A DNA stretch of 64,000 nt from an uncultured Bacteroidales bacterium (GTDB taxonomy: Bacteria; Bacteroidota; Bacteroidia; Bacteroidales; Muribaculaceae), in assembly GCA_902800715.1 (NCBI GenBank), contig CADCFN010000003.1, positions 124,001 through 188,000 of the forward strand, given 5' to 3'. A program made the translations under genes and the position numbers. Of this stretch, positions 8,482 through 54,494 are shown one piece after another (position 1 is the stretch's first letter; the number at the start of each line of letters is the position of its first letter). Under the pieces are notes generated by a model. That model made no database searches. It had not been told where the DNA came from and was given only the letters and a program-made list of their open reading frames with translations.

Positions 8482-9630
8482 ATGAGCATCATCAAACACC
8501 TCAAGGGCATCTATGGACACGTTGTCGGTATTCCGTCAAGAATGGCCGACTGGGTGCTGCTAAGAGGTTCGGACAAGGCTGCCACAGCATTCCTGAAGCG
8601 ATTTCCCCAACCTGAATTATCGGCTGCTGACAAGCAAGCGATTGACGCATACTGGCGTCAATATGGTGTTCAATTCAAGGACTACAGCTGGTTCCAGATG
8701 TACTATGGTGTGACGGGCAAACATGACCCGCGCTTCATACCCGACTCTATCGCCCGCTTCGCTCTCTTCAAATATTACAACGACATCAGGGCAATACCAG
8801 GATGGGATGACAAGAACCTGTATGAGAACTTTTTGCCCGACATCAAGTTTCCCAAGACATTTGCACACATCTATCATGATGAAATTTATGACGGAGAGTG
8901 GAAATACTATTCCCCTGAGAATCTGCCGCTGCTGAGCGAGAAAATCTTCATCGAACTGGGTGATGATAAGGAATTTGTGTTAAAAGTCACTAAAGGCTCC
9001 TATGCCGGCCAGGGCGTGAGGTTAATCCATGCCGATTCCCCCGACGATGTCCTGGCTGTGCTCACCGAGAACGCCAAGGGCAATTTCATCGTTCAGGAGC
9101 GCCTTCACCAGAGTGACTTCATGAGCCAGTTCTGCAAATCGTCGGTCAACATTTTCAGGGTCATCACATGGCGTCATCAGGGCGAAGTCAAGGTGCTGTC
9201 GACGAGCATCAGGTTTGGTCTTGAAGGATATTTCACCGATGTTTGCTATATCGATGGCGAAGAAATCGTGAATGTCGTGGGCGTTGAGAAAGACGGCACT
9301 GTGAAAGAGCAGTATGGCTCTTTTAGGGGTCTGACCGATATTACCATAGATTTGCACGAACGTATATCCCCCAACTTTGACACCATCATCGCAATGGCCA
9401 AGAAAGGTCACGAGAGGCTTTTTCCATTTGGCCTCGTCGGTTGGGACATTACCCTTGACCAGGACAACACTCCCTACTGCATTGAGTTTAATGTAAACGC
9501 ACCCGGAACCATCTTGTATCAATACGCCAACGGTCCCTTTGGTGGTGATTACAATGAGGAACTCATGGCCTTCCTTCTTGACAAAGAAAACGTAAAAAAG
9601 TATATCCCCAAGAAATACCGCATCAAGTAG
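8482..9630 (+). CDS. ATP-grasp protein of the sugar-transfer-associated family
   Basis: A 382-residue protein resembling the ATP-grasp family linked to polysaccharide and sugar-transfer genes (ATPgrasp_ST type). Supporting motifs are KVTKGSYAGQGVRLI near residue 170, FIVQERLHQ near 205, FRVITWRHQGEVKVL, and the metal-binding LVGWDITLDQDNTPYCIEFN near 320-335. The N-terminal 120 residues are a separate lead domain (KHLKGIYGHVVGIPSRMADW). There is no signal peptide, so it is cytoplasmic. It follows the SRP RNA terminator by about 25 bases and is not next to glycosyltransferases here, so its substrate is unknown. Confidence 0.75.
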   Translation: MSIIKHLKGIYGHVVGIPSRMADWVLLRGSDKAATAFLKRFPQPELSAADKQAIDAYWRQYGVQFKDYSWFQMYYGVTGKHDPRFIPDSIARFALFKYYNDIRAIPGWDDKNLYENFLPDIKFPKTFAHIYHDEIYDGEWKYYSPENLPLLSEKIFIELGDDKEFVLKVTKGSYAGQGVRLIHADSPDDVLAVLTENAKGNFIVQERLHQSDFMSQFCKSSVNIFRVITWRHQGEVKVLSTSIRFGLEGYFTDVCYIDGEEIVNVVGVEKDGTVKEQYGSFRGLTDITIDLHERISPNFDTIIAMAKKGHERLFPFGLVGWDITLDQDNTPYCIEFNVNAPGTILYQYANGPFGGDYNEELMAFLLDKENVKKYIPKKYRIK

Positions 9631-9676
9631 TATTCTAGGGGATATTCCCGTTTATCAGCAATCACATTCTTGCCTG

Positions 9677-10876
9677 TCAACGCAGCATGTCGGCGACCTC
9701 GTCGAGGGTGCCGTCGTTGGGTGACGGTGTTACGCCTAGCAGGTAGCAGAGCAAGGGGTAGATGCACACGTTGCGGAAACGGTCGGGCTTTTCATAGCCC
9801 ACCTTGAAGTCGGGACCGATGGCGCGGAATCCGACCTGCATGTCGGCAGCCATGTGGTCGAAGCCGTGGCTGCCACGCTGCTTCTTAGACGGCTTGTCAG
9901 CAAAAAGCCATCCCACGTCGGGCAATACCACCACGTCTCCCATATTGGGATTAGTGCCATAGTTCAAGTAGGCGGGTAGCTCCCCGCGTTTCCATGCACG
10001 GATGTGGTCAACACCCTGCAGCTTGTTGTAGATGGAGTCGATGTATTGTGGTGCGCTGGCATAAATTAGCGTGGGATAATCGTTGCAGAAGCGTTCATAC
10101 CATTGCTCGGGCAGCACGTCGTCGATGTCCACAAAGCGTTTGGGGTCTACGCTGGTCATGCCGTGGTCGCCCGTGACAATGAAGTTCACCTTGTCGGCAA
10201 AGGGCAGGAGCTGGATGCGTGCCCAAAGATTGCTCAACAGCAAGTCCATGTCCTCCATGGCACGGCGTGTCATGCGATTCATGGGGCCGTAGTTGTGACC
10301 GGAGCGGTCGGGCTCCTCAAAATAGGCCATCACCAGGTGGGGGCGCTTGTCCTCGGGGAGTGACAGAAGCCTGATGATTTCGTCTACCCTACCGGGATAG
10401 TCAATCTGTTGGGTCTGATAATCAAGCCAGTAGGTGGGATGCTCGCCCTGGATTGCCACATCGCTGCCCACCCAGAAGACTGTTGCCGTTTTCACGCCCT
10501 GATGTTTGGCCGTGAGCCATACGGGGTCGCCACCATAATAGTAGCCCTTGCTGCGTGTTTCCTTGTTGCCGAGCGAGAACTCGACGCCACGCTCACGGTC
10601 CCAGAAGGTGTTGGTGATGATGCCGTGGTGATCGGGGACGAGTCCTGTTGCCAGGGTATAATGGTTGGGAAAGGTCTTGCTGGGGAATGAGGGCTGCATG
10701 ACCGCCTTGACGCCCTCACGCGCCAACTGCTGCATGAACGGCACGTCATAGGTGTCCAGATAGTCCCATCGCAAGCCGTCGAGGGAGATAATCACCGTGT
10801 AATTGTCGCGTCCGGCTGCCCATGCCTGCAAGGGCAGCAAGGTCAGCAAAAGCATAAGATAAATAAGTCTTCTCAT
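9677..10876 (-). CDS. Secreted nucleotide pyrophosphatase/phosphodiesterase (NPP family)
   Basis: An alkaline-phosphatase-superfamily enzyme that cleaves phosphodiester or pyrophosphate bonds in nucleotides or related compounds. A signal peptide (MRRLIYLMLLLTLLPLQAWA) starts at the ATG at 10876; an upstream ATG at 10933 lies in the transposase relic and would spoil it. The metal-site aspartate is in ISLDGLRWDY (about residue 33) and the nucleophile threonine in QPSFPSKTFPNHY (about residue 68). Later metal ligands appear in EEPDRSGHNYGP, VTGDHGM and GSHGFDH. All expected catalytic residues are present. It appears to be a single-gene unit. Confidence 0.9.
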   Translation of the reverse strand: MRRLIYLMLLLTLLPLQAWAAGRDNYTVIISLDGLRWDYLDTYDVPFMQQLAREGVKAVMQPSFPSKTFPNHYTLATGLVPDHHGIITNTFWDRERGVEFSLGNKETRSKGYYYGGDPVWLTAKHQGVKTATVFWVGSDVAIQGEHPTYWLDYQTQQIDYPGRVDEIIRLLSLPEDKRPHLVMAYFEEPDRSGHNYGPMNRMTRRAMEDMDLLLSNLWARIQLLPFADKVNFIVTGDHGMTSVDPKRFVDIDDVLPEQWYERFCNDYPTLIYASAPQYIDSIYNKLQGVDHIRAWKRGELPAYLNYGTNPNMGDVVVLPDVGWLFADKPSKKQRGSHGFDHMAADMQVGFRAIGPDFKVGYEKPDRFRNVCIYPLLCYLLGVTPSPNDGTLDEVADMLR

Positions 10877-10929
10877 TTTCGTGTATCTAGTTTTTACATT
10901 ATTATCTAACTGTGAGGGATTTCGCTCCA

Positions 10930-11167
10930 TCATGTGAGCAAATGTTCATTCCACTCTACCCCATTGCGTACAGCTATCCGTTGGTATTCCTCATCAAAGC
11001 ACCATACTCCTTGCCCCAGGCCACAAATTCGGGAAGAGGCCGCTTTTCTTAGCCCAGTCGCTGCTCGACCGCTTGATGTCACATACTAGATGAGATAAAG
11101 TGACGGTCGGCGCCAAGTCAACTAGCATGTGGATATGGTTCTCGATGCCTCCAATACAGCAGCACTA
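10930..11167 (-). pseudogene. Relic of a REP-associated / IS200-type Y1 transposase
   Basis: Reading leftwards from about 11164, one frame gives CIGGIENHIHMLVDLAPTVT and then IKRSSSDWAKKSGLFP, the HUH-bearing core of Y1 transposases (HIH intact). The match then shifts frame to EFVAWGKEYGAL and shifts again to DEEYQRIAVRNGVEWNEHLL plus a stop at 10930-10932, which is the usual C-terminal tail. The segment that should carry the catalytic tyrosine between these last two pieces is deleted, and the N-terminal third is absent. This is a dead copy. It lies immediately before a cluster of REP-like hairpins, the arrangement expected of a RAYT gene. Confidence 0.75.
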
Positions 11168-11346
11168 TTATTTTTCCACAAAGGTAATCATAAATAATGA
11201 TACATACAAGCGCAGGGGGGACTACCGCACCTCGTAGAGGACCCACAATGGGATAACGACATCGCCACCGCTCTGCGGTGGCACGGGCGGACCCGGAGGG
11301 TGATGGGGGACGGAAAACGGATGGCGGAGGGGCGGCGACAATAAGG

Positions 11347-11542
11347 GCCGCGGCGGGAGCCGCGGCATAGATAAACCCTGATGGCGGGGGGGCGGCGACA
11401 ATAAGGGCCGTGGCGGGAGCCGTGGCACAGGGGACCCTGATGGCGGGGGTGGCGACAAAAAAGGGCCGTGGCGGGAGCCACGGCATAGATAAACCCTGAT
11501 GGCGGGGGCGGCGACAAAAAGGGCCGTGGCGGGAGCCACGGC
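11347..11542 (+). repeat. REP-like hairpin cluster B (four units with arm covariation)
   Basis: Hairpins lie at 11347-11366 (GCCGCGGC/GCCGCGGC), 11407-11426 (GCCGTGGC/GCCGTGGC, two wobble pairs), 11465-11484 and 11523-11542 (GCCGTGGC/GCCACGGC), all with loop GGGA and spaced 58-60 bases. Each is followed by CAYAG and a CCCTGATGG tail. The set holds the ancestral, intermediate and compensated states of one base-pair change. Confidence 0.9.
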
Positions 11543-11575
11543 ATAGATAAACCCTGATGGTGGGGTGTTGTGGGC

Positions 11576-11609
11576 AAAAAAGAGGGGGCGGCTGTTGGAG
11601 CCGCCCCCT
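11576..11609 (-). terminator. Terminator of the BACON lipoprotein/TonB receptor operon
   Basis: Eleven-base arms AGGGGGCGGCT (11583-11593) and its complement (11599-11609) form a perfect GC-rich stem. On the minus strand it runs directly into TTTTTT. It lies about 65 bases after the stop codon at 11675. Confidence 0.9.
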
Positions 11610-11674
11610 TTAACAAATTCATGTGTTGAAATGTAATAGCTTAGTAACGGGACTCAGAAAAATGTTTCTTTCCG

Positions 11675-13180
11675 TTACTGGGCCTTCTCGTGCGAGAAGT
11701 AGATACCGTTGGCCAATTGAGGCGTGCCATTGTAGGTGCTCTTGACACCGATTACGCTCAACTGGTCACCCAACTCAATACCCTTGGACTCAAGCAGGCC
11801 CTTGCGGTTGTCGCCGGTAGCACCCCAACCGGGATAGCAGCCATAAACGTACACTCTGTTGGTCTCATCCTCAAGATAGAGGTTACCGTAGTCAGCCCTT
11901 ACGATTTCGGTGATGGTACCAGAGATCATGTAATAGGTATTGGGATTGTCTTCCATATCAAGGAACTCGTCGATGGTGACGCGGGTCACGGGGATAATGT
12001 CCTCGACAATGCCCTCGACCATTTGAGGCGAGCCCTTGTAGTCGCCGCGCTTGCCCACAACAGTGACTACGTCACCCTCCTTGACCTCGATGCCAGTGAA
12101 GCCAGCGGGACGGTAAACCAAGGTCTCGCCTGAGTAGTCACGGATGTAGAAGCCCTGGGTCTCGCGATAGATACCAGTCACAACACCAGTCATACGATAC
12201 TGGGTCTCACCAATCTCGGCAGCGAGGAAGTCGGCCACGGTGCATTCAATGATTGAACCAGTCTGATAGACAGTAGCTTCGGCAGTATATTCCTTACCGC
12301 TATCGTCGGTGGTCTTGAAGACTACAGTTGCGCTGCGGTCGCCACCGGTATTGGCATTGGCATGGAAGGTTACCACGGGCTCAGCACCACCGACTACGGA
12401 AACGATTCCCAGCCAGTCCTTTGCCTCTTCGGGGACCTCGACCGAAACGCCATTGTTGGTCTTGCAGCTCAGGGTAATGGCTACATTACCGCCCTCAACG
12501 GGGATGGTAGCATCCAAGGGGTCATAACCCTCGACCTTGACGAGCGATTTCTGAATCTTGACAACGGTCACGTCGACGAGCTCGACAGTACCGTTATAGA
12601 CGGTCTTGGGACCCTCAACGGTGACGATGTCACCCACCTCGAGACCGAGGCTGAGGAAGTTCTTGGTGTTGCCCTTGGCGTCGAGAGTACCATAGATGTA
12701 GATTTCGCCGGTCTCGTCACGCAGGTACCAGTTACCATAGGTCGTATTGACGATTGAGGCAACAGTACCGGTCACGCGGTAGTTCTTGCTCTCGGGACCT
12801 TCAATGACCTCGGCACAAGTGGCATTCTTTACAACGGACAGACCTTGTATTACGTTGATATTCTGAGAGTTGATTCCACAAGCGATGTGCAGCACGGTGT
12901 TGCGGCCGTCGGGGGCAGCAGGTGCGGTAAAGGTCACCGTGGTCTCACCAGCGCCACCATTCATGGGGCTAACGGTGAGCCAAGCGGGAATCTCAGCTTC
13001 ATCAAACGACCAAGCCTCCTTGGCATTGACGGTAATCTTGTTGGAGCCACCGTTAACATCGATGCTCACATAGGAGGATGAAACCTTAATTTCATCGAGC
13101 AGAGTCATTGCATCATCGTCGGAGCAACTAGAGAGCAGAGCGACCAGTGCAAAAAACGAAAGAAAATATTTAAGTTTCAT
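11675..13180 (-). CDS. BACON-domain lipoprotein with repeated OB-like domains
   Basis: A surface or periplasmic lipoprotein (lipobox LLSSCSDDD near residue 19). The N-terminal 90 residues match a BACON domain (NGGSNKITVNAKEAWSFD...IPAWLTVSP). Three similar beta-barrel segments follow, each with the pattern YRVTG.V..I....YGNWYLRD.TGEIYIYG...GD.VTV.G....Y.G..; they begin near residues 120, 310 and 400 and resemble OB-fold nucleic-acid-binding-like modules of Bacteroidota lipoproteins. A second BACON-like stretch lies near 215-300. The gene is 23 bases after the TonB receptor, so the two probably act together. No catalytic site is visible, so ligand binding is the likeliest role. Confidence 0.8.
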   Translation of the reverse strand: MKLKYFLSFFALVALLSSCSDDDAMTLLDEIKVSSSYVSIDVNGGSNKITVNAKEAWSFDEAEIPAWLTVSPMNGGAGETTVTFTAPAAPDGRNTVLHIACGINSQNINVIQGLSVVKNATCAEVIEGPESKNYRVTGTVASIVNTTYGNWYLRDETGEIYIYGTLDAKGNTKNFLSLGLEVGDIVTVEGPKTVYNGTVELVDVTVVKIQKSLVKVEGYDPLDATIPVEGGNVAITLSCKTNNGVSVEVPEEAKDWLGIVSVVGGAEPVVTFHANANTGGDRSATVVFKTTDDSGKEYTAEATVYQTGSIIECTVADFLAAEIGETQYRMTGVVTGIYRETQGFYIRDYSGETLVYRPAGFTGIEVKEGDVVTVVGKRGDYKGSPQMVEGIVEDIIPVTRVTIDEFLDMEDNPNTYYMISGTITEIVRADYGNLYLEDETNRVYVYGCYPGWGATGDNRKGLLESKGIELGDQLSVIGVKSTYNGTPQLANGIYFSHEKAQ

Positions 13181-42064: not shown

Positions 42065-43453
42065 ATGACAAAATCACTCAGATTTACAGTAGCCACTCTG
42101 CTGGCTGCTATGACCATTAGCGCCGTTGCCCAGGGAGTCACCCTGCGCGGTGTGTATCAAACCAGTCGTGACGACGATTATCCTAACGGTTTCTATACCG
42201 AGTATGTGGGCTACAACTACACTCTGGGAAAGCCGATTTTCATCGTTCAGCAAGGCTTGTACAAGATGGAATGGGACGGCACTACCCTTCACAAACCTGA
42301 GAAATACCCAGCCGTGAACAAAGCCGACTTCTACAGCAACGGCAAGTTCACCGACAACGCCATGGCCGAGTGGGCTTCCAACTTCAACATGATGTACGGC
42401 AACTCAGGCGCCATTATCTATAAAGGCGTGCTCACTACCGTGATGTCGCGCACCGACATGGACAGCAACAGCGGAGCCCAGGTTGTTCCGGGAGCCTCGG
42501 TCAATGACACCACGCGCTTTGCCGTGCGCAAGTGGGATGCCCAGACCGGCGACCTGCTCAGCTCTGAAATCCGCCCCGCCTGGGACTGTCTGGAATCGGC
42601 CGGTATGGCCGTTAACCCCAAGGACGGCAAGGTATATGGCCTGTTCCACATCACCCACAAGTACCTGCCCGACTCCATCCTCAACGACCCCGACTTCTTT
42701 GCCGATGAGGCTGCCGACTCGACCGACAGCGGCTATGCCATCTGCACCATCGACCTCGACAAGATGGAAATCACCCAGATTACTCCGGGCCTGTACTACA
42801 GCAACTTTGTCACCTTCGCCATCAACAGCGAGGGCCGTGCATTTGCGCTGACCAGCGGTGCTACTGCAGCCTACCCTGCCGAGAACGGCAAGTACTATGA
42901 CATCAACGGCGAACTCACGGGCTCGCATCTCTATGAGTTTGACCTCAAGACGGGCCTCATCATGGACGACAACCGCAGCAACACGGGCTACATGACCCAA
43001 GTGAAGCGCCAAGCCGCCTGCTTCAGCAAGAATGACCCGAACAAGATGTACTGGATGGGCTACTACAACAGCGGACTTGGATTTGATGACTACGGCAACT
43101 GGAATCCCCTGCCCGACAAGAACTGGAAGACCAATGGCAAGTATGACACGTCGCTCTATGAGGTGGACATCACCACCGGCGAGGCCAACCGTATCGACAA
43201 CATCGACGAACGCTACCTGTTCTGCTACATGTGGGTTGACGGCGAGGAAGACATGCCCGTTGCCGGAGTGCGCGGCGACGTGAACAAGGATGGAAGCGTT
43301 GACATTGCTGACGCTACACGCCTTATCGACTACCTGCTGAATGACAAGACCGCCGAAGTTGACTCGACAAACGCCGACTGCAACAACGACAATGACATCA
43401 ACATCAGCGATGCCACCACCCTGATTGACTATCTGATTAAGAACCAGTGGTAA
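42065..43453 (+). CDS. Secreted protein of unknown function with dockerin-like C-terminus
   Basis: A 462-residue exported protein with signal peptide cleavage near AVAQG. Residues about 25-390 contain repeated short strands (RGVYQTSRDDDYPNGFYTEY, AGMAVNPKDGKVYGLFHITH, FVTFAINSEGRAFALTSGAT, LYEFDLKTGLIMDD) that resemble a beta-propeller, but the family is not recognised. The last 60 residues are a dockerin-like pair of calcium loops (GDVNKDGSVDIADATRLIDY and DCNNDNDINISDATTLIDY) ending in tryptophan, closely matching the tail of the amylase at 17969-21199. It stands alone with its own promoter and terminator. Confidence 0.8.
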   Translation: MTKSLRFTVATLLAAMTISAVAQGVTLRGVYQTSRDDDYPNGFYTEYVGYNYTLGKPIFIVQQGLYKMEWDGTTLHKPEKYPAVNKADFYSNGKFTDNAMAEWASNFNMMYGNSGAIIYKGVLTTVMSRTDMDSNSGAQVVPGASVNDTTRFAVRKWDAQTGDLLSSEIRPAWDCLESAGMAVNPKDGKVYGLFHITHKYLPDSILNDPDFFADEAADSTDSGYAICTIDLDKMEITQITPGLYYSNFVTFAINSEGRAFALTSGATAAYPAENGKYYDINGELTGSHLYEFDLKTGLIMDDNRSNTGYMTQVKRQAACFSKNDPNKMYWMGYYNSGLGFDDYGNWNPLPDKNWKTNGKYDTSLYEVDITTGEANRIDNIDERYLFCYMWVDGEEDMPVAGVRGDVNKDGSVDIADATRLIDYLLNDKTAEVDSTNADCNNDNDINISDATTLIDYLIKNQW

Positions 43454-43678: not shown

Positions 43679-44827
43679 CTACTTATCATTCAACACTTCA
43701 GTAAACAAGTTCATCCATCTATTAATTATCGGCTCAATCTGAAATTTTTGCGCCTTTAACTTTGCTGCACGCCCCATTTTCTTGAGCAGTTCTTGGTCTT
43801 CTATCAACTTACATATACGCTCGACCATCATATTCTCATCTTCTAGTGGGACAAGATACCCGTCTTCTCCATCAGTAATAATCTCTCGCGGACCATGAGG
43901 ACAATCATAAGAAACCACAGGCACGCCACATTCCATCGCTTCCAGAAGGGACATCGGCATGCCTTCGGATAGTGATGTAAAAGCAAATATTGACGAACGC
44001 ATCATCACTTCCTGTACATCATTGGTATAGCCCGTCATCAAGACCACGTCCTGCAAAGCATTATCAATGATTTGTTTTTTCAAGGATGGCATTTCGGGGC
44101 CATCACCGTATATCTCAAGAATCCATTCAGGATGTCTTATATGAACTCTTTTAAACACATTTATCAGCGAAGAAAAATTCTTCATGTGATCCAATCTGCC
44201 GATTGACACCACACGTTGTTCTTTTAATGGCGAAGGGGTTTCACATTTGAACGATACAGGATTAGGCATGACTTCCACATTTTTCCGCCCCCGCCAATTA
44301 GTCTGCCTCTCTCCCTCAGTTAAGACAACGACCTTATCACATCTACGCATACAAAACAGATCATCATAATAACAGAACGCTAAGGATATTAATCTTTGGA
44401 GCAGTGACCTGGAATGCTTCACATGAAAGAACCTGTCACTATGTACCTCTCGAAATAATTTCCATTTACGGTTCTTGATAGATGGGAGTATAAGTCTATT
44501 AGAGTTTCCAATCGATACGACAATGTCTGGGAAAACATTACTCAATTTTTTCTCTAAAATAATCCGATGACTTTTCTTCTTTTTCCAAGCATCGATATAA
44601 TTTAATATCGCAAGCTTCGAAGGGTTCCATATATAGTTGACACCAATATTCACAAAATGAACAGCAGGAAACAATTCAAATGGCAACTCATCTTTGTTGT
44701 TATTGTTCACGACAAAGATAAAAACTTCGTTTCCTGGAACCATTGAAAGTGCGTTGGCTTTTATGCTTGTCACACGCTCAATGCCACCGACAACATTCAA
44801 ATCATCTATGCAAAAAACAATATTCAC
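43679..44827 (-). CDS. Glycosyltransferase, GT4 family
   Basis: A retaining GT-B enzyme (382 residues), probably adding a sugar to the surface polysaccharide repeat. N-terminal glycine-rich acceptor region DDLNVVGGIERVTSIKANAL; donor domain with VVSIGRLDHMKNFSSLINVF, LEIYGDGPE and the EX7E motif in SEGMPMSLLEAMECGVPVVS. Translation begins at GTG (44827), with an in-frame stop just upstream. The gene is AT-rich compared with the window's housekeeping genes. It is the last gene of the locus and lies 224 bases beyond the previous transferase. Confidence 0.88.
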   Translation of the reverse strand: MNIVFCIDDLNVVGGIERVTSIKANALSMVPGNEVFIFVVNNNNKDELPFELFPAVHFVNIGVNYIWNPSKLAILNYIDAWKKKKSHRIILEKKLSNVFPDIVVSIGNSNRLILPSIKNRKWKLFREVHSDRFFHVKHSRSLLQRLISLAFCYYDDLFCMRRCDKVVVLTEGERQTNWRGRKNVEVMPNPVSFKCETPSPLKEQRVVSIGRLDHMKNFSSLINVFKRVHIRHPEWILEIYGDGPEMPSLKKQIIDNALQDVVLMTGYTNDVQEVMMRSSIFAFTSLSEGMPMSLLEAMECGVPVVSYDCPHGPREIITDGEDGYLVPLEDENMMVERICKLIEDQELLKKMGRAAKLKAQKFQIEPIINRWMNLFTEVLNDK

Positions 44828-45051
44828 AATTCACTAATATAAAAAAGTGCAACAAGCCTGTAAAAGCTTTTAAGTACTATAAAATCTAGATACACCTAAA
44901 AGAAAAATTGTTTATTAAAGAATCAACAACAACTATTGAAAAGACTATAAACCAAGTTCAAAATCATATACACTTAATTGTATAACAATAAGTTGGGTTA
45001 AGATTAATTGGCATAGTATGCACTTATTCGACTTAACAATCACAAAATGCC

Positions 45052-46053
45052 TTATAACTTCAAACGTTCCTTGAATGGTTTAATGATATATTTTGACAAT
45101 TTAGTGCCACTATAATACCAGAGTTTGAGTATAGCAATCCTATTTTTTGACCATAGATCAGAAAACTTTAACAAATCTGAACGATTCATATCAGCAATTA
45201 CTCTTCTGAATAGTTTTTCTTTAGCTAAGTCATAGTCATAATTAGATATATATATCATTGAAGCAACCTCTACTACGTTTGACATTACAAATGAACATAT
45301 ACTAGGTTCATTCACATTAAAAGGGAGATTGAGTTTGCGGACCCGTTCGAGTGATTCCAAAACCTTGATATAATGACTATTATTATTTATCAGTTCTCGA
45401 CCATCCACAGTCTGTCCATCTCGGCCCAAGAGGTATTGATACAAAGTAATATCAATAAAAAATATATTGCGAGCGCATGATAGAGGTACATACACATACT
45501 CCAAATCAGTGTAACACACACCTTCCGTTTGCACATAGCCTATCCTTTTCAATAAAATAGTTGAATACGTCAAACAATGCATGTGAAAACATTTATTAGG
45601 AAGAATGAACTGATTCAAATCCAAGGTAGTGTTAAACGGAGCTTCAAATGTCTGGATTTCAACATTATCATTGCCCTCCCAACAAATAGCATATCTCGTA
45701 CACACGCAATCTACATCCAACGTTTCTAGTGTGTGGACAAGTGTCACCAGCGCCTGGCTGTCCACCCAGTCGTCGGCATCGACGATGCGGAAGTACTTGC
45801 CCGTGGCAATCTTGAGAGAGGCGTTGATGCAGGAGCCGTAGTGTCCGTTGGGCTTGTCGATGACGACCACAGACTGCGGATAGCGCTGCTTGTAGTCGTT
45901 GGCGATTGCCAAGGTACTGTCCTTGCTGCCGTCATTGACGATGATAATCTCGAGTTGTTCCAGCACCTCGTCGACCAGCATGGAGTCCACGCAACGATGG
46001 AGGTACTGCTCCATGTTGTAACTCGGGATGCAGATGCTTAACAGCTTGCTCAT
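45052..46053 (-). CDS. Glycosyltransferase, GT2 family (mosaic composition)
   Basis: An inverting GT-A transferase of 333 residues. N-terminal domain LLSICIPSYNMEQYLHRCVD, IIIVNDGSKDSTLAIA and the metal-binding FRIVDADDWVDSQ. The start overlaps the end of glf by 4 bases (46050-46053), so the two are translationally coupled. The first ~110 codons (45720-46053) are GC-rich like native genes, while the remainder is distinctly AT-rich, so the gene appears to be a fusion of a local front half with an imported acceptor-specificity half. Confidence 0.88.
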   Translation of the reverse strand: MSKLLSICIPSYNMEQYLHRCVDSMLVDEVLEQLEIIIVNDGSKDSTLAIANDYKQRYPQSVVVIDKPNGHYGSCINASLKIATGKYFRIVDADDWVDSQALVTLVHTLETLDVDCVCTRYAICWEGNDNVEIQTFEAPFNTTLDLNQFILPNKCFHMHCLTYSTILLKRIGYVQTEGVCYTDLEYVYVPLSCARNIFFIDITLYQYLLGRDGQTVDGRELINNNSHYIKVLESLERVRKLNLPFNVNEPSICSFVMSNVVEVASMIYISNYDYDLAKEKLFRRVIADMNRSDLLKFSDLWSKNRIAILKLWYYSGTKLSKYIIKPFKERLKL

Positions 46054-47198
46054 TTATTCAACTCAGTATTAACGGTTAACAATGCCTGTTCGATGACTTT
46101 GTCCATGTCATAGTACTTGTACTCGGCGAGGCGTCCGCCGAAGGTCACGTCACGCTCCTGCTGGGCCAGCGCCTTGTAGCGCTGATATAAGGCAGAATTA
46201 GCCTCGTCGTTGACGGGGTAATAGGGTTCCATGCCGGGTTTCCACTCGGTGGAGTACTCGCGGCTGACCACTGTCCTGGGGACGGCATAGACCTCGTTAC
46301 CGAACATCTCGAAGTGCTTGTGCTCGATGATGCGGGTATAAGGCACCTCGCGCTCGGTGTAGTTGATGACCGCATTGCCCTGGTAGTTGGGCGTTTCCAT
46401 CACCTCGGTCTCGAAATTGACCGTGCGGTACTGCAAGTTGCCGTAGCAGTAGCCGAAGTACTCATCGATTGGACCCGTATAGACCAAACGGTCAGCCATT
46501 TCGTGCCAAGAATCGCGCAGTTGAGCAAAGTCCACGCCAGTGCGCGTTTCCACGCCATCGAGCAGACGCTCCACCAGGCGGTTGTATCCCCCGATAGGGA
46601 TGCCCTGGTAAGGGTCGTTGAAGTAGTTGTTGTCAAACACGAGTCGCACGGGCAGACGGCGTATGATGGATGCCGGCAGGTCGCGGCAGTCGCGTCCCCA
46701 CTGCTTCTCGGTGTAGCCCTTGATGAGGCGCTCATAGATGTCCTTGCCCACCAGCATCAAAGCCTGTTCCTCGAGGTTGCGGGGTTCTGTCACCCCCTCG
46801 GCCTTCATCCGTTCTACCGCCTCGGCCTTCTGTTCCTCGATTTTGGCAGTGGCTTCGACGGGCGTCTTCACGCCCCACATGCGGTTGAACGTGTTCATGT
46901 TGAACGGCAGGTTGTACATCTCGTCCTTGTAGCGTGCCACCGGGCAGTTGGTGTAACGGTTGAACTCGACCAAGGCGTTGACATATTCCCACACCCGCTT
47001 GTTTGCCGTGTGGAAAATATGAGCCCCATAGCGGTGGACATTGATGCCCTCGACCTGTTCACAGTACACATTGCCACCCAGGTGAGGACGACGGTCAATC
47101 ACCAGGCAGCGCTTGCCCGCTTTGTGAGCCTCATGGGCAAACACCGCGCCGAAGAGTCCGGCACCGACAATCAGATAATCGTAATCGTATCGTTTCAT
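46050..47198 (-). CDS. glf: UDP-galactopyranose mutase
   Basis: Converts UDP-galactopyranose to UDP-galactofuranose, the donor for Galf in surface glycans. The 382-residue flavoprotein has the FAD-binding start YDYLIVGAGLFGAVFAHEAH, RRPHLGGNVYCE, the substrate-loop region FHTANKRVWEYVN and C-terminal EYKYYDMDKVIEQAL. The gene is GC-rich and looks native. It overlaps the upstream GT2 by 4 bases (47195-47198) and the downstream GT2 by 4 (46050-46053). Three truncated relics of its 5' end occur further upstream in the locus. Confidence 0.95.
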   Translation of the reverse strand: MKRYDYDYLIVGAGLFGAVFAHEAHKAGKRCLVIDRRPHLGGNVYCEQVEGINVHRYGAHIFHTANKRVWEYVNALVEFNRYTNCPVARYKDEMYNLPFNMNTFNRMWGVKTPVEATAKIEEQKAEAVERMKAEGVTEPRNLEEQALMLVGKDIYERLIKGYTEKQWGRDCRDLPASIIRRLPVRLVFDNNYFNDPYQGIPIGGYNRLVERLLDGVETRTGVDFAQLRDSWHEMADRLVYTGPIDEYFGYCYGNLQYRTVNFETEVMETPNYQGNAVINYTEREVPYTRIIEHKHFEMFGNEVYAVPRTVVSREYSTEWKPGMEPYYPVNDEANSALYQRYKALAQQERDVTFGGRLAEYKYYDMDKVIEQALLTVNTELNK

Positions 47199-48205
47199 TT
47201 ATATTTGTATGAAAGAATCTTATTATATACCTTCGACAAACAAAGTGAAGTCCTGCAAGAGTGATAATGTTGAGAAACAAATCGTTTAAAACCATTATCC
47301 CATCCAATAGCATCCCAGTATTTTTTATCACTAGCCATGAGTTTTGCACACATTTCATTAAAAAGGTCATGTTCCCTGGCTCTAGCAGCTCGTTTTAAAG
47401 CCACTTCAATACTCCTGACAGCCACACGATTTGCTTCATCAAAGTAAACCTGTTCCTTGTCTCTAAAGAAATCAACAATCAACAAGGCATTATCGATATC
47501 GTCCTTTAACCGTTTCTTATTGATTACACCTTTTTTTTCAGCTGTATAAGTGTGTTCACGTGTGCAGTCATAATGATAAACAACTTTATCAATCGTATCA
47601 AATGATTCTGCATAATAAGCAAGACGGGTCATCATCCAACAATCCTCACCACAGTTCACACCCTCCTTGGCCCTAATATTGTAGTCATCATACAATGACT
47701 TTCTGATAAGATGGTTCCAAAGGCTGTGGTTGATGGTCGGTTGCATCATATCGATAACGAACTCTTCTTTTGAACTATAGTGAGGACTCGGCAACATGAT
47801 TTGATTATAAGCTGTGTGCATTATTGCCAATCCGGTCACTATGTCAGCCTTGGAAGTCAACTGATGATTGACCAGAGTTTCCACCGAGTCCAATTCGGTA
47901 TAATCATCGGAATCGGCATGAATGACGAACTCCCCTGTACAGTGTTCCAGAGCTGTGTTTCTAGACGCAGCAACTCCACGATTTCTATCATGGTTGATTA
48001 TCTTAGTCTGGTTAGAACGATGGGGGTAACGGCTCATTACCCGTATCAATACGTCAATACTTGAATCTGGCGTGCAGTCGTTGACAAAGACGTACTCAAT
48101 GTTAGCATAAGTTTGCTCAAATAATCTGACTGCGCATCGTTCAATATATTTCTCGACATTATGTATTGGAATTACAATCGAAACATATGGGTTTATTGTT
48201 GCCAT
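47195..48205 (-). CDS. Glycosyltransferase, GT2 family (paralogue of 48582-49592)
   Basis: A 336-residue inverting GT-A enzyme: YVSIVIPIHNVEKYIERCAV, EYVFVNDCTPDSSIDVLIRV, and the DxD-like EFVIHADSDDYTELDSV. It is AT-rich. It aligns without gaps to the GT2 at 48582-49592, with moderate identity in the first half and near identity in the last third, extending past the stop codon into the glf start. The stop codon overlaps the ATG of glf (ATGA). Confidence 0.9.
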   Translation of the reverse strand: MATINPYVSIVIPIHNVEKYIERCAVRLFEQTYANIEYVFVNDCTPDSSIDVLIRVMSRYPHRSNQTKIINHDRNRGVAASRNTALEHCTGEFVIHADSDDYTELDSVETLVNHQLTSKADIVTGLAIMHTAYNQIMLPSPHYSSKEEFVIDMMQPTINHSLWNHLIRKSLYDDYNIRAKEGVNCGEDCWMMTRLAYYAESFDTIDKVVYHYDCTREHTYTAEKKGVINKKRLKDDIDNALLIVDFFRDKEQVYFDEANRVAVRSIEVALKRAARAREHDLFNEMCAKLMASDKKYWDAIGWDNGFKRFVSQHYHSCRTSLCLSKVYNKILSYKYK

Positions 48206-48495
48206 ATTAATACTTAAATTTGGGTTTATTTATATTTTTGGTTATGTTCCAGAATAACAACAATAGTTTTCAAGAATAAGAAAAGATTAGATAGCACTAG
48301 CCAATTGTCACTAGATGAAATGACAATCAAGCAGATATACTATTATCCTTCTAAATAACATTAAAATAGATTCGAATTAGCTCTAGGGAGCAAGGGCAGT
48401 TGAATTTGTTAGCTAATCTATATGGTTATGATTGCGTTGGCTTCCACTTTTCAAGGTTTTCTCTTTCAGAAACGCGACAAGAACAGACGAAGTGA

Positions 48496-48585
48496 TTAAA
48501 ACAACAGACCACCCGCATGATTGATGCGGTCAACCACCGCGCAGAACAGTCCAGCGTTGACGATCAAGTAATCGTATCGTTTCAT
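48496..48585 (-). pseudogene. glf 5' relic 1 (29 codons)
   Basis: ATG at 48585 begins MKRYDYLIVNAGLFCAVVDR and ends at a TAA (48496-48498). It matches the first ~16 residues of intact glf, with FAD-loop glycines replaced (NAGLFC for GAGLFG), then diverges. It overlaps the upstream GT2 stop by 4 bases exactly as intact glf does. Confidence 0.85.
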
Positions 48586-49592
48586 TTATATTTGTATGAA
48601 AGAATCTTATTATATACTTTCGACAAAAACAGTGAAGTCCTGCAAGAGTGATAATGTTGAGCAACAAATCGTTTAAAACCATTATCCCAGCCAATAGCAT
48701 CCCAGTATTTTTCATCACTAGCCACCAGTTTCACACACATTTCATTAAAAAAGTCATGCTCCCCAGCACTAGCAGCTTGTTCTAAAGCCACTTCAACACT
48801 CTTGACTGCCACACGATTTGCCTCATCAAAGTAAACCTGTTCCTTGTCTCTAAAGAAATCAACAATCAATAGAGCAGTAGCGATATCGTCCTTTAATTTT
48901 TTCTTATTGACTACACCCTTTTTGTTTGCCGTATAAGAATATTTACGAGTACAGTCATAATGATAAACTATCTCATCAACAAATGAGAAAGAAGAAGCGT
49001 AATAGGCCAATTGCGTCATTACCCAGCAATCCTCACCATAGTTCACGCCTTCCTTTGCCTCGACCTCATAATCGACATATAGCGACCTGCGAATCAGACG
49101 TTTCCAAATGCTATGATTAATTGTCTCCTGCATCATATCCGTCACAAATTCCTCTTTTGAGTTATAGTGAGGATTAGGCAACAGTGTGTGCCCATTAACC
49201 ATGTACATCACTGACACTCCGGTCACTATATCGGCTTTGGAGCGCAACTGTTGATTGACCAATGTTTCCACCATGTTCAATTCAACATAATCATCAGAAT
49301 CCACATGAATGATAAACTCTCCTGAACAATTCTGCACTGCGGTATTCCTTGCAGCGGCAAGCCCACGGTTCACAGTGTGGTTAATGATTCTGGTAGATTT
49401 CTCGCGCAAAGGATAACGCTTCATCACCTGTTCAAGCACCTGTATGCTACCGTCAGGGGTACAGTCATTGACAAAGACATATTCGATGTTCTCATAAGTC
49501 TGCTCAAACAGGCCAATGGCACAACGCTCGAGATACTTTTCAACATTGTATATCGGGACAAGAATTGATACCTTGGGAGTCTCAATACTCAT
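48582..49592 (-). CDS. Glycosyltransferase, GT2 family
   Basis: A 336-residue GT-A enzyme: KVSILVPIYNVEKYLERCAI, YVFVNDCTPDGSIQVLEQVM, metal-binding EFIIHVDSDDYVELNMVETL. It is full length with no frameshift, so it is probably functional beside its paralogue at 47195. The last third is nearly identical to that paralogue (EKYWDAIGWDNGFKRFVAQH), which suggests gene conversion. It is followed by glf relic 1 through an ATGA overlap. Confidence 0.9.
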   Translation of the reverse strand: MSIETPKVSILVPIYNVEKYLERCAIGLFEQTYENIEYVFVNDCTPDGSIQVLEQVMKRYPLREKSTRIINHTVNRGLAAARNTAVQNCSGEFIIHVDSDDYVELNMVETLVNQQLRSKADIVTGVSVMYMVNGHTLLPNPHYNSKEEFVTDMMQETINHSIWKRLIRRSLYVDYEVEAKEGVNYGEDCWVMTQLAYYASSFSFVDEIVYHYDCTRKYSYTANKKGVVNKKKLKDDIATALLIVDFFRDKEQVYFDEANRVAVKSVEVALEQAASAGEHDFFNEMCVKLVASDEKYWDAIGWDNGFKRFVAQHYHSCRTSLFLSKVYNKILSYKYK

Positions 49593-50029
49593 AAACAGTT
49601 TTTCTAATGTCAGCTAATTAATGAGAGCCACTGGTTTCCCGATAAAATTAGGAAATGATAAAGATGTGCCTCTAAACCCTGCGGGCTAATGCGAATTTCA
49701 CGAACCTTTAGCTCGGCGTAGCCAATTTAACTAATTTGATGCTAGTATTTTAATCTATTCGTGAGATTTGTATAATTAGCGCAATTAGCATTAAAAAGTA
49801 ACAGAATCAAATTGTTATTCATTGCATAGTAATTTCAAATCCGTGCGCTTGAATAAATATTATAATAATCTGATTATAAACAACTTACATCATTATTGTC
49901 GTTTTTTAGCGGGACACCATAATGAATGAGAGCTTCTATCGTAAACCACAAGCGTATTCGTGTGTATGCTAATGAGATTAGATTACACGGACCGCATTAA
50001 CCTTTATCTTGCGCAATCCACTCATCGAT
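49593..50029. other. Decayed intergenic stretch inside the polysaccharide locus
   Basis: These 437 AT-rich bases lie between a GT2 start and glf relic 2. No open frame of interest is present. The one structure seen is an imperfect inverted repeat at 49685-49704 and 49758-49780. It may be the remains of a lost gene between cassettes. Confidence 0.5.
49685..49780. repeat. Imperfect inverted repeat (possible small mobile or RNA element)
   Basis: Arm GCTAATGCGAATTTCACGAA (49685-49704) pairs with TTCGTGAGATTTG...ATTAGC (49758-49780) with a few mismatches and a small bulge. The centre also contains GCTA-rich short palindromes. Confidence 0.4.
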
Positions 50030-50119
50030 TTATACAACGACTTCAATACCGGAGAGAATACCCCAGAACACCGCGCAGAACAGTCCAGCGTTGACAATCA
50101 AGTAATCGTATCGTTTCAT
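50030..50119 (-). pseudogene. glf 5' relic 2 (29 codons)
   Basis: ATG at 50119 begins MKRYDYLIVNAGLFCAVFWG and ends at TAA (50030-50032). It shares the NAGLFC substitutions with relic 1, and about 50 bases are nearly identical between the two, so one was copied from the other. It lies 26 bases after the upstream GT2 stop codon. Confidence 0.85.
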
Positions 50120-50145
50120 TGGTATCTAGTAAAAAAGGGAGGCAT

Positions 50146-51114
50146 CTACTGATAGTCAGCCTCGTTACTTGACAATTTCAATGCCGAGGCCAATGGTGGG
50201 GCATACCTTACCAGTGTCCTCTTGATAAAATGAATCGGGCAGTATCTCAATGAGTAGATATAATCCTTCAGTTTCAACAATGTTGAATCTTGACATTGAG
50301 CCCTCTCCCAATATCTAAAGGAAATTGCGTTCATCATCACACGGTGATTCACTCTCTTAAAATTATCCTTCACAAACAAATAATGCTCGGGACCACCCAT
50401 CGAGAAAACTCGAGCACTCTTCGGGCTGAAAGTGATTCCTTTATCCTGAACACGATAGACCGACATCATTCTGTCCATGCCACGAATCTTGCCCATCTCA
50501 GCGCAGGAAAGTACAAGAACAATATCTCCAAACAGATTACGGTATCTCCTCTTTAATGGATAAAACTGGCATTTTTTCCTATATACCATAGATGCTGTCG
50601 GGACCGTCCAAACCGAAAACAACTCAGTCGATTCATAATCACGATTCTCTATACTACGAAAAGTATTACCCGGTTTTCTTTGCATTTCCTCTCCACTCTC
50701 GTGAATGATTGTGTTCGCACGATGGAAGCACATTGTATAATCTGGATGACTTTCGAGGAAGTCCACCTGGAGCTGCAGCTTATTGGGGTCGGTCCAGTAG
50801 TCATCGCCTTCACAGAAGGCAACATATTTTGAACCAGGGTTCATGGCGGCATCCATGGCTCTTGCCAGTGAGCCATCGCGCTTGCTGAACTGGTTCTCGG
50901 TCTCGTAGCAGGGTATGATGATGTCGGGGTACCTCTCGGCATACTCACGGATGATAGCAGCCGACCCGTCGGTTGAGGCATCGTCGTGGACGATAGCCTC
51001 GAAGGGGAAGTTGGTCTTCTGCATCACAAAGCCGTCCAGGCACTGACGCAAGTAGGGCTCATGGTTATATACCAGGCACAGAATTGATACCAAAGGCACT
51101 CTTTCTTCACTCAT
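50146..51114 (-). CDS. Glycosyltransferase, GT2 family (conserved front, divergent back)
   Basis: A GT-A transferase of about 322 residues. The ATG at 51114 (MSEERVPLVSILCLVYNHEP) is chosen; earlier in-frame codons add 20 unrelated residues. Motifs: FEAIVHDDASTDGSAAIIRE and the metal-binding VAFCEGDDYWTDPNKLQLQV. Residues up to about 130 closely match the next transferase at 51263-52258 and are GC-rich; after LESHPDYTMC the sequence becomes AT-rich and unrelated to that paralogue. Confidence 0.88.
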   Translation of the reverse strand: MSEERVPLVSILCLVYNHEPYLRQCLDGFVMQKTNFPFEAIVHDDASTDGSAAIIREYAERYPDIIIPCYETENQFSKRDGSLARAMDAAMNPGSKYVAFCEGDDYWTDPNKLQLQVDFLESHPDYTMCFHRANTIIHESGEEMQRKPGNTFRSIENRDYESTELFSVWTVPTASMVYRKKCQFYPLKRRYRNLFGDIVLVLSCAEMGKIRGMDRMMSVYRVQDKGITFSPKSARVFSMGGPEHYLFVKDNFKRVNHRVMMNAISFRYWERAQCQDSTLLKLKDYIYSLRYCPIHFIKRTLVRYAPPLASALKLSSNEADYQ

Positions 51115-51218
51115 CTTTCTTATTTGTGTTAGAACTGTGTGAGTGACATCAATAGAAAAGACACCTGAACGCAATAAATGACATCCTCTCTAACTGCTGA
51201 TAGCCTATCCCAAAAACT

Positions 51219-51266
51219 TTACCGTAATCCCCAAATGCCGACAATCAAGTAATCGAAATCCATCAT
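51219..51266 (-). pseudogene. glf 5' relic 3 (15 codons)
   Basis: ATG at 51266 gives MMDFDYLIVGIWGLR and a TAA stop (51219-51221). It matches the FAD-binding start of a glf allele of the MDFDYLIVG type, different from the MKRYDY type of the other copies. It overlaps the upstream GT2 stop through ATGA, as intact glf does. Confidence 0.75.
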
Positions 51267-52258
51267 GTGAATTGATAATAGAAATAACGACGCCATATCT
51301 TTTTGAAAACTCTCGTAACATATTTATTATCAATCAACAAAACCAGCAAATGAAGATGCCAGCGCCAATTAAATCTTATAATCTCTTTCTTAAAAGCCTT
51401 CAAATACTTTCTTACTGCTTCTTTGCCTTGGTCTATTGGAAGGCACATATTTATGTAAAAAGCTATCCTATTATAAAAATGACGTCTATACTTCGGATAA
51501 TCATTTGCAAAGCCTTTTAACATATTGACCTCGCTTCTTCTTGTTTTAATCAATCGATCCACATCAAAACTCTGCTGCCTGTTTGACCATGAGCCAGGAT
51601 GGTTAATTCTATAAACAGACATCTGACGGTCAAAGCAGTACACAGCGCCCTTCATGGCACACATAATCTGGAGCGGATAGTCTCCGACATGACATTTTCG
51701 GCAATAATCGGGATAATCAGGCCATTTAACCTGTTTTCTATACAGCAAACTACAAGTCGATAAAAATAGTCCACCGCGATTGATGATTTCATCAGGTTTC
51801 AATCTACCGCTTCTATCAGGAGGAACGACATCAACAAATGAGTTTAGGCCTTCATCATATACTTTGGTCAAGTTACAGCACATTGAGTAATCCGGATGAC
51901 TTTCGAGGAAGTCCACCTGCAGTTGTAGTTTTTCGGGGTCGGTCCAATAGTCGTCCCCCTCGCACGAAGCGACATACTTAGAGCCAGGGTGCATGGCGGC
52001 ATCCAATGCTCTTGCCAGTGAGCCATCGTGCTTGCTGTACTGATTCTCGGTTTCGTAAATGGGTTTGATGATGTCGGGGTATTTCTCGGCATACTCACGG
52101 ATGATAGCAGCCGACCCGTCGGTCGAGACATCGTCATGAACGATAGCCTCAAACGGGAAATTGGTCTTCTGCATCACAAAGCCGTCCAGGCACTGCCTCA
52201 AGTACGGCTCATGGTTATAGACCAGGCAACGGATGCTCACTAAAGGAATTTGCGACAT
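51263..52258 (-). CDS. Glycosyltransferase, GT2 family
   Basis: A 331-residue GT-A transferase: IPLVSIRCLVYNHEPYLRQC, EAIVHDDVSTDGSAAIIREY and metal-binding CEGDDYWTDPEKLQLQVDFL. The front ~125 residues differ at about 13 positions from the GT2 at 50146, while the back half is unrelated (DRSGRLKPDEIINRGGLFLS) and probably sets acceptor specificity. The composition breakpoint is near 51890. Confidence 0.88.
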   Translation of the reverse strand: MSQIPLVSIRCLVYNHEPYLRQCLDGFVMQKTNFPFEAIVHDDVSTDGSAAIIREYAEKYPDIIKPIYETENQYSKHDGSLARALDAAMHPGSKYVASCEGDDYWTDPEKLQLQVDFLESHPDYSMCCNLTKVYDEGLNSFVDVVPPDRSGRLKPDEIINRGGLFLSTCSLLYRKQVKWPDYPDYCRKCHVGDYPLQIMCAMKGAVYCFDRQMSVYRINHPGSWSNRQQSFDVDRLIKTRRSEVNMLKGFANDYPKYRRHFYNRIAFYINMCLPIDQGKEAVRKYLKAFKKEIIRFNWRWHLHLLVLLIDNKYVTRVFKKIWRRYFYYQFT

Positions 52259-52336
52259 AAGGATATCAGAGAATAATTAGAGATTTCGCTAAAGGCACTG
52301 AGTAAACCCAGTGGTAAACATCACTCAAAAAATGAA

Positions 52337-53377
52337 TCAACTATTATTTACTACTAAATCACGGATTTCTTCCTCGGTAATATAATCTTCCTCTCTGCCC
52401 CATATTTTGGCGAATCGTTGTTTTTCCATTTCTTCCTTGAAGTCGACAAGGTAGTCATGCCAAGAATAACGGGGCTCATATCCCAATTCGTTGACCGTTT
52501 TCCTATTATCCAACACAAACTGTCGAGAACTTCGTTTCTCAGGTTTGTAAATGATTCGTGAAGGATGGTCTTTGGGAGAAAACACGTCAATAATGCCTTC
52601 AATACGCTCTTTCAGCGTGCTGCCACCACTGCCAACGTTATAAATACCACCATCAACGTCAGCCAGGACAGCTTTTTCAATAATCTGCAAGAAATCCTTG
52701 ATACATATTGTTTCCAGAAGACGATGAGGATCGCCCCATAATTCAATATCAGCGCCCTGCATAGCGCGATAAATCAAGTACCTATCAGATACCATGATCT
52801 TCTTGCCGTCTCGGAACGTATAGGGGTTGGGGTGATATAGATAAATCCTTGACAATCGGATGATGAACCTCTTGATACCAAATTCCCTGTAATAGTGCTC
52901 TATCATGTCAACAGCAGCATTTTTGGCAATCACATACAGCCAGTGGTCACCATCGGGCACTTTTCTGAGGGAATCGGCGGGAATAGGCACCTTTGTACCA
53001 AACAAATAATTGATGTCGAACAGTGTCTGAGGGAACAAGATTCTGTCTGCACCGACTTTGCGCGTATATTCCAGCACATTCAGGGTTCCCTGCACAATAG
53101 ACTGTATATAACTTGTTCCATCGAAGCCCTTCATAACCGCTGGCAACATACCCGCAAAATGCACTACAGCATAGATACCAGCCTGCGGCAATTTCTCGAA
53201 ATCCTCAGGATTAGTGATGTCTACAGAATAATACGGAATATCGTAATCGGCAAAGAAGCCGTTGTCATCCTTGCGATGTCCTACTGCAATCACGCCATAA
53301 CCCAAGCCCTTTAAATGGATTGAAATATGTGCACCAAGATTGCCTGTTGCACCGATGACTAATATCGTTTTGTTCAT
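52337..53377 (-). CDS. NAD-dependent epimerase/dehydratase (extended SDR)
   Basis: A nucleotide-sugar epimerase or reductase of about 346 residues. The NAD-binding start is ILVIGATGNLGAHISIHLKG, the catalytic YxxxK is in YVIAKNAAVDMIEHYY, and the late motif GGIYNVGSGGSTLKERIEGI is usual for sugar SDRs. It likely makes an activated sugar for the polysaccharide. The ATG at 53377 is preferred by family start; an ATG at 53389 overlapping the previous stop is also possible. AT-rich composition suggests acquisition with its neighbours. Confidence 0.85.
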   Translation of the reverse strand: MNKTILVIGATGNLGAHISIHLKGLGYGVIAVGHRKDDNGFFADYDIPYYSVDITNPEDFEKLPQAGIYAVVHFAGMLPAVMKGFDGTSYIQSIVQGTLNVLEYTRKVGADRILFPQTLFDINYLFGTKVPIPADSLRKVPDGDHWLYVIAKNAAVDMIEHYYREFGIKRFIIRLSRIYLYHPNPYTFRDGKKIMVSDRYLIYRAMQGADIELWGDPHRLLETICIKDFLQIIEKAVLADVDGGIYNVGSGGSTLKERIEGIIDVFSPKDHPSRIIYKPEKRSSRQFVLDNRKTVNELGYEPRYSWHDYLVDFKEEMEKQRFAKIWGREEDYITEEEIRDLVVNNS

Positions 53378-53381
53378 ATAT

Positions 53382-54494
53382 CTACTCATTATTTGGTGTT
53401 ATTTTATGATCAGAATAATACATCAAGAATCCATCTCTTTCATAGTTTGAATGGCTCTCTTTCAACTCTACAGAGTATATCTCTTTCTCCACAAGCCAAT
53501 CTTTACCAGTTGCGTCCTCAAAAAAAGGCAAAAGATGCGAAGTCTGCTTGGTCAGATAGTAGATGCCCGCAAACCCGCCCTTGGCAATTTTTTCAGGTTT
53601 AACAAATTGATTGAGGGCCACATCAATCATGCACTTCAGGTAATCGACGCCAGAGCTCATGGATACTAGTCTGTTAGATATGTCATCACCTCCTCCGCGC
53701 AAATTGGCTTCTATCAGATAGATGTCATTTCCTTTATACTTCACTTCGACATGTGATGCCCCGTCGGTATAGCCCATAGCAGAGAGCAAACGAGGGATAA
53801 CAATTTCAATCTTGTGCCTTAAATCATCGGAAATATCAGCTGGTTGATGATGTCCAAGTTCCACAAAATGCGGAAACGACGAACTATCTTTGTCCGTCAC
53901 TTGAATCACCGTATGCTTGCCATGAAAAGAAATGCTCTCGACAGAAAGTTCTTTGCCCTCGATAAACTCTTCAACGATGATGCCTGAATCATTGTCCACT
54001 GATGCATACCGTATCGCCGTGTTGAATTCTGATTCATCACGCGCAAACGAAACGCCCTTTTTAGCCCTCCCAATACATGGTTTCACCACACAAGGATAAA
54101 TGTGCAGGTCTTTTCCCTCATACCTGTAGTTACGCGGGCATCCTAAACCCTCGATAGATTCGGTCAATGAACGAACATAAGACTTATCGTGCAAAGAGAT
54201 AACAGTATCATAGGGAGTTCCGTTCAAGTGCAATCTATCAGCGACATAGGCAACGACGTCGGCAGTCCTGTCTGATGCATTAGAGACAACTCCGTCAACG
54301 CCGATGGACTTACACGCCTCGACGATTCTATCTGTCTCAAATATTGAAATCGGATAGAAATGATCGACAATGTCTCTACATACAGCCCCCTGTTCCCATG
54401 CAAAACAGAAAGTCTCAATTCCTAGTTCTCTTGCTTTCAGGCAAATAGGATATTGACCCGTTGAAGCTCCAATGATAGCAAGCTTTTTCTTCAT
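53382..54494 (-). CDS. ATP-grasp ligase, carbamoyl-phosphate-synthase-like
   Basis: A cytoplasmic ATP-grasp enzyme of about 370 residues. An N-terminal Rossmann-like pre-ATP-grasp domain (KLAIIGASTGQYPICLKARE) precedes the central grasp (YPCVVKPCIGRAKKGVSFAR) and the metal-binding segment in SHVEVKYKGNDIYLIEANLRGGGDD. Such ligases join a carboxylate to an amine through an acyl phosphate. It lies between the epimerase and the PP-loop gene, so the product is probably an amide-bearing sugar or its precursor; this is inference. Confidence 0.82.
   Translation of the reverse strand: MKKKLAIIGASTGQYPICLKARELGIETFCFAWEQGAVCRDIVDHFYPISIFETDRIVEACKSIGVDGVVSNASDRTADVVAYVADRLHLNGTPYDTVISLHDKSYVRSLTESIEGLGCPRNYRYEGKDLHIYPCVVKPCIGRAKKGVSFARDESEFNTAIRYASVDNDSGIIVEEFIEGKELSVESISFHGKHTVIQVTDKDSSSFPHFVELGHHQPADISDDLRHKIEIVIPRLLSAMGYTDGASHVEVKYKGNDIYLIEANLRGGGDDISNRLVSMSSGVDYLKCMIDVALNQFVKPEKIAKGGFAGIYYLTKQTSHLLPFFEDATGKDWLVEKEIYSVELKESHSNYERDGFLMYYSDHKITPNNE

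Follow-up and report, generated by a model that had tools for sequence, protein, structure and literature searches.

A surface-polysaccharide locus in an uncultured member of the Muribaculaceae carries one intact copy of glf, the gene for UDP-galactopyranose mutase, together with three short pieces of the beginning of that gene, each lying behind a gene for a family 2 glycosyltransferase (GT2). In this mosaic locus redundant copies of glf have probably decayed to 5′ stubs, which homologous recombination then copied along with the 3′ ends of GT2 genes. The stretch analysed, hereafter the window, comprises 64,000 nucleotides of contig CADCFN010000003.1 (assembly GCA_902800715.1; its genome is labelled G000), and all coordinates are window positions. 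The locus is read on the minus strand, where the order from 52258 to 45052 is GT2a, relic 1, GT2b, relic 2, a spacer bearing a miniature inverted-repeat transposable element (MITE), GT2c, relic 3, a second spacer, GT2d, intact glf and GT2e.

Truncated glf starts behind transferase genes

An earlier note on this DNA had placed a glf-like start behind each of four GT2 genes (ends at 51263, 50146, 48582 and 47195), and we confirm the coordinates of all four: relic 1 (51219–51266), relic 2 (50030–50119), relic 3 (48496–48585) and intact glf (46050–47198). Its ATGA stop/start overlap at three of the four GT2–glf junctions stands as well, the exception being relic 2, which begins 26 bases past the stop of its GT2 gene. 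The phrase 'every GT2 gene' was too broad: the pattern holds for four of the five, no relic being seen after GT2e (45052–46053). The open frames of 15, 29 and 29 codons are as described, against 382 codons in intact glf, such that the bulk of the coding part is gone; the similarity to the window's glf is shorter than these frames, however, with alignments of 23, 53 and 58 bases for relics 1, 2 and 3. The note had also exchanged two of the motifs: it gave NAGLFC to relics 1 and 2 and MDFDYLIVG to relic 3, when it is relics 2 and 3 that carry NAGLFC and relic 1 that has MDFDYLIVG. Relic 1 begins MMDFDYLIVG and is too short for its flavin adenine dinucleotide (FAD) loop to be judged. In relics 2 and 3 the GAGLFG of this loop has become NAGLFC, and the functional motif is thus not kept.

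A profile of the glf N-terminus was scanned in six frames over 168 loci (2.67 Mb) with a threshold of 12 bits. Relic 2 scored 29.7 bits, relic 3 28.0 bits, a further relic in a congeneric species, G072 (locus L117), 25.0 bits, and relic 1 12.0 bits (E = 0.14, with the number of sequences set nominally at 20,000). Relic 1 is thus the weakest of the relics, and the case for it rests on its location at the GT2a stop. Beyond these relics and 167 full starts, the matches of at least 12 bits were one glf truncated where its contig ends (L151) and two that fall within long reading frames, of 350 and 631 amino acids (L034, L158). Relic 3 holds a second piece of glf past an internal deletion: its peptide VDRINHAGG corresponds to glf profile positions 32–40, with a score equalled by none of 2000 random peptides. 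Relic 3 is thus the decayed remainder of a longer copy rather than the mark of a clean insertion breakpoint. The relics are gene remnants (pseudogenes) of glf, for relics 2 and 3 beyond chance.

A stub shared by two species

The relic in G072 also reads NAGLFC and also lies behind a 3′ end of the GT2c/d type, here with a GTG start and a frame of 21 codons. Over 51 bases the three NAGLFC relics are identical to one another at 48–50 positions (relic 2 and the G072 relic at 49; relic 3, a near-copy, at 50), and to the glf of G072 at 42–44. Neither N nor C occurs at the two changed places in any of 152 full-length glf loops, which were selected by a pattern. These two shared changes, combined with the close identity, indicate that a single stub was copied to give relics 2 and 3 and the relic in G072. 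The evidence for relic 1 is weaker; it stands apart, and may be independent of the NAGLFC stub.

The link between the two species extends beyond the stub itself. The G072 relic runs straight into the middle of the MITE, and the right end of the element, its target site and the GT2c start are all kept at 95% identity. Relic, MITE and GT2c start having been kept together, this is one segment inherited by, or transferred to, both species, and the common NAGLFC, MITE insertion and GT2c start make relic 2 and the G072 relic one relic. That the latter ends differently is best explained by a deletion at a later time. Between the window and G072 the identity of seven neighbouring genes is lower (five flanking genes 78–90%, glf 88%, GT2e 71%).

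Mosaic transferases and the origin of the stubs

The transferases next to the stubs are themselves mosaic. GT2c (48582–49592) and GT2d (47195–48205) have dissimilar 5′ ends and share 84–96% identity per 50 bases over their last ~300 bases, which run on into the relic or into the glf start. The GT2 gene before glf in G072 is GT2c-like to about window position 49510 (0.88–0.98 per 50 bases) and GT2d-like from there to its end (0.90–1.00). In GT2a and GT2b the similarity lies in the 5′ parts instead. Since the stub abuts GT2c/d 3′ ends that share ~300 close bases, we read it as having been copied by recombination together with those ends. In the 82 bases before four GT2c/d-type ends (78–81 of 82 identical, two diagnostic sites), relic-linked and glf-linked ends were not clearly separated.

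The following course of events would account for these features. The locus would once have held more than one GT2–glf pair, and an extra glf would have lost its function, with the changes at the two FAD-loop glycines, as we infer, coming after the loss of selection. Deletion would then have shortened the extra copy to a stub of ~17 codons directly behind its GT2 gene. Homologous recombination and unequal crossing-over among the GT2c/d paralogs would have copied and rearranged the stub along with GT2 3′ ends, and the MITE would have landed between stub and GT2c. The parts of this account that are reconstructed are the tandem pairs at the outset, the sequence in which the events took place and the way in which recombination proceeded. 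The stubs themselves are probably without function.

Several observations weigh against this reading. No clear glf signal was seen in the tail of relic 2 (~32% of random peptides score as high against the glf profile) or in the spacers behind the relics, and decay from a longer copy is therefore established for relic 3 only. In all three NAGLFC relics the similarity to glf ends at nearly the same base, as insertion at a fixed joint would likewise predict. The spacers behind relics 2 and 3 showed no mutual similarity beyond the relic itself, so that simple tandem duplication alone is insufficient. No relative with two intact GT2–glf pairs at this locus was found, which makes the starting state one that we infer, and the G072 contig ends upstream of its relic, hiding the fuller arrangement there. 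In DNA alignments of glf with the spacers, made with short and with long gaps, all 24 comparisons were equalled by at least four of 100 dinucleotide shuffles, and spacer 3 matched nothing in 101 genomes of the genus except the relic or the glf start.

Distribution of the relics

The 168 scanned loci comprise the window, seven loci of the genus, 80 places in the family (79 of 94 full-length or contig-cut glf places plus one in genome G155; nine of the 94 were left out) and 80 loci from genome contigs; 166 of them have a full glf start. Relics are borne by two: the window, with three, and G072, with one. The profile scan detected no such relic in the remaining 166 loci (164 with a full glf start), and thus a stub recurs in one of the 167 loci other than the window, where it is the same stub.

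Whole-genome searches, in sets with one genome per species for genus, family and order, gave a similar picture. A full-length glf start is present in eight of the 101 genus genomes, and short-frame copies below E 0.005 were found only in G000 and G072; rows at E 0.005–0.5, some with short frames, were treated as chance. In the family (397 genomes, 30 genera) 84 genomes match at E 0.005, and rows of the relic type come from G000 and G072; one further row, from G155, is degenerate. The G155 locus (L229) was considered as a candidate glf pseudogene and rejected, its matches being weak and scattered (best E 0.017). The shortened frames of the family search belong to G336, where glf is cut by a contig end, and to G217 (227 amino acids). 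Relic 1 was not listed in the genus or family searches, so stubs that short would be missed. Among the best matches listed in an order-wide profile search, short frames occur in G555 and in G672, the latter extending to the contig end; this search is weak evidence of absence.

Two loci outside the family bear on the fate of glf copies. In another family of the order, contig C87 of G555 (L270) carries at 1825–2028 a broken start resembling that of glf, in which ~35 codons can be recognised by eye. What follows looks, again by eye, like a transferase tail, and the 4.5 kb fetched contain no intact glf; this is perhaps a deletion remnant of a glf–transferase pair. A contig of a Clostridia metagenome-assembled genome (L073) has two full-length glf genes, at 6138 and 9994, ~3.9 kb apart and with near-identical N-termini, and a duplication of this type could precede a relic.

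As a control, orphan gene ends were sought in 88 family loci with 901 genes, a procedure that did not detect relic 1. Of six orphan 5′ matches, three were glf relics; another came from a gene duplicated in tandem (L218), the one in L228 was considered spurious, and the sixth lies at window position 42065. The eight orphan 3′ matches include a 98% copy in L185 as well as the 3′ end of a GT2 gene that precedes the relic in G072. Leftover gene ends thus occur for genes other than glf, and for 3′ as well as 5′ ends. The L185 copy (5649–5590) duplicates the final 60 bases of an 800-codon gene at 9419–11818, elsewhere in that locus.

Alternative explanations

The earlier note had proposed that the glf start is a preferred joint at which GT2 cassettes were inserted repeatedly by recombination, each leaving the first glf bases behind an older GT2 gene. 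In its favour, four successive GT2 genes end at a glf start, three relics end at nearly the same glf base, and the same locus in a relative, G050, has a single GT2 gene at this place (epimerase, one GT2, glf and GT2e, with no relic). The genes upstream of glf are also more variable than those downstream. Among 83 glf places in the family, with 70 upstream and 68 downstream neighbours compared at 40% identity over 70% of the length and uncorrected for kinship, 91 of 2278 pairs are alike downstream and 26 of 2415 upstream. Gene turnover in front of glf is real, yet stubs have been left only in this lineage among the scanned loci.

A locus built by recombination, with one GT2 gene in G050 and a variable upstream gene, is thus the part of this proposal that stands. 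Its independent scars do not: NAGLFC, common to relics 2 and 3 and to the relic in G072, marks these three as copies of a single stub, the MITE site is common to relic 2 and its G072 counterpart, and relic 3 has more glf past a deletion. In the search of related loci that the note had called for, a relic appeared in G072 also, as one and the same stub, and in no other locus scanned. A general assembly joint at the glf start is not supported, given that none of the other 166 scanned loci has a relic and that relic-type rows at E 0.005 or better in the 101 genus and 397 family genomes are those of G000 and G072, the G155 row having been rejected. We therefore regard repeated insertion as unlikely for the set as a whole, although it may have produced relic 1 and, at the outset, the NAGLFC stub. 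A narrower version, in which the ~300-base GT2 3′ end and the first ~50 glf bases together form a homology joint for exchanging or stacking GT2 genes before glf in this lineage, and perhaps in unsampled relatives, is a speculation to which we give little weight.

The stubs might instead be kept for a function: they could, for instance, be translated as short frames in coupling with the GT2 stop, or provide a tag of homology by which the GT2 genes stay exchangeable. The open frames of 15, 29 and 29 codons, the ATGA overlap in two of the three relics and the 49 of 51 bases shared by relic 2 and the G072 relic would suit such a role. The frames nevertheless diverge in their ends after about codon 17, the G072 copy has a GTG start and only 21 codons, and the spacer and GT2 sequences nearby differ about as little from one species to the other (95% identity; mostly 88–100%), such that the stub shows no extra conservation; we find this explanation quite improbable. 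Assembly error or chance similarity, which a draft genome in 27 contigs, a G072 contig that ends beside the relic and the 12.0 bits of relic 1 might suggest, is barely credible, since relic, MITE site and GT2c start recur in genomes of two species and relics 2 and 3 score 28–30 bits.

Further features of the locus

GT2a (51263–52258, from the list of open reading frames) and GT2d both match Pfam PF00535, as does GT2b (50146–51114), which is similar to the GT2 gene of G050 over 51092–50351; we read the start of GT2b as the ATG at 51114, where the open reading frame list places a TTG further upstream, at 51174. GT2e is the conserved partner downstream of glf in five loci of the genus. Homologues of GT2a in G075 and G056 have no glf following within the stretch fetched. 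Homologues of GT2c at E 1e-60 were found only in G000 and G072 among the 101 genus genomes, and its C-terminal part at 1e-30 only in the same two among the 397 family genomes.

Intact glf matches PF03275 (E 5.8e-80) and is alone in doing so in the whole genome. At 47198–47170 it has an additional YD repeat (MKRYDYDYLIVG), absent from the relics and from the glf genes of G072 and G050. An Rfam scan of 44000–54000 at E 1 gave no match.

Bacterial MITEs are short, multicopy elements with terminal inverted repeats and target duplications, and the element between relic 2 and GT2c (296 bp, 49629–49924) is like them in shortness, copy number, inverted repeats and target duplication. Copies that have both ends begin with a sequence like CATTAGTGTCCCGTTAAAA and carry its complement on the right, imperfectly so in the window copy, which is flanked by the 9-bp target duplication GCTCTCATT (49925–49933 and 49620–49628). 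Repeats of 9 bp were read by eye at two other copies (L253, L254), the duplication not being exact in all the others. The copies (L250–L257), some incomplete, include several in G072, another in the window genome (G000:C17) and one in G052, and a 527-base query containing the element had partial matches in 44 of the 101 genus genomes. The label MITE is drawn from the ends and the duplication.

Comparison with known systems

We found no description of glf stubs behind transferases in the open-licence literature. The relics look like debris of ordinary duplication and recombination, and a new general mechanism is not supported. As markers of past recombination they record in fine detail how a surface-polysaccharide locus can grow in a gut bacterium: transferase paralogs swap parts, and a redundant neighbour decays to a stub that is carried along with the transferase.

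In O-antigen and capsule clusters, short decayed gene pieces likewise mark past gene replacement; the window differs in that one stub has been multiplied together with a neighbouring GT2 gene. Among the genes of pneumococcal capsule (cps) loci, wcrC has a role in sugar transfer. A published account of these loci describes truncated copies and pseudogenes of glf, and also a cluster of mosaic structure whose breakpoint falls within wcrC (PMC3541774). Broken glf and a mosaic cluster are thus common to both systems. In the pneumococcal cases described there (PMC3541774) the cps locus is deleted or atypical and has just one broken glf, whereas in the window an intact glf is accompanied by several 5′ stubs, every one of them following a GT2 gene.
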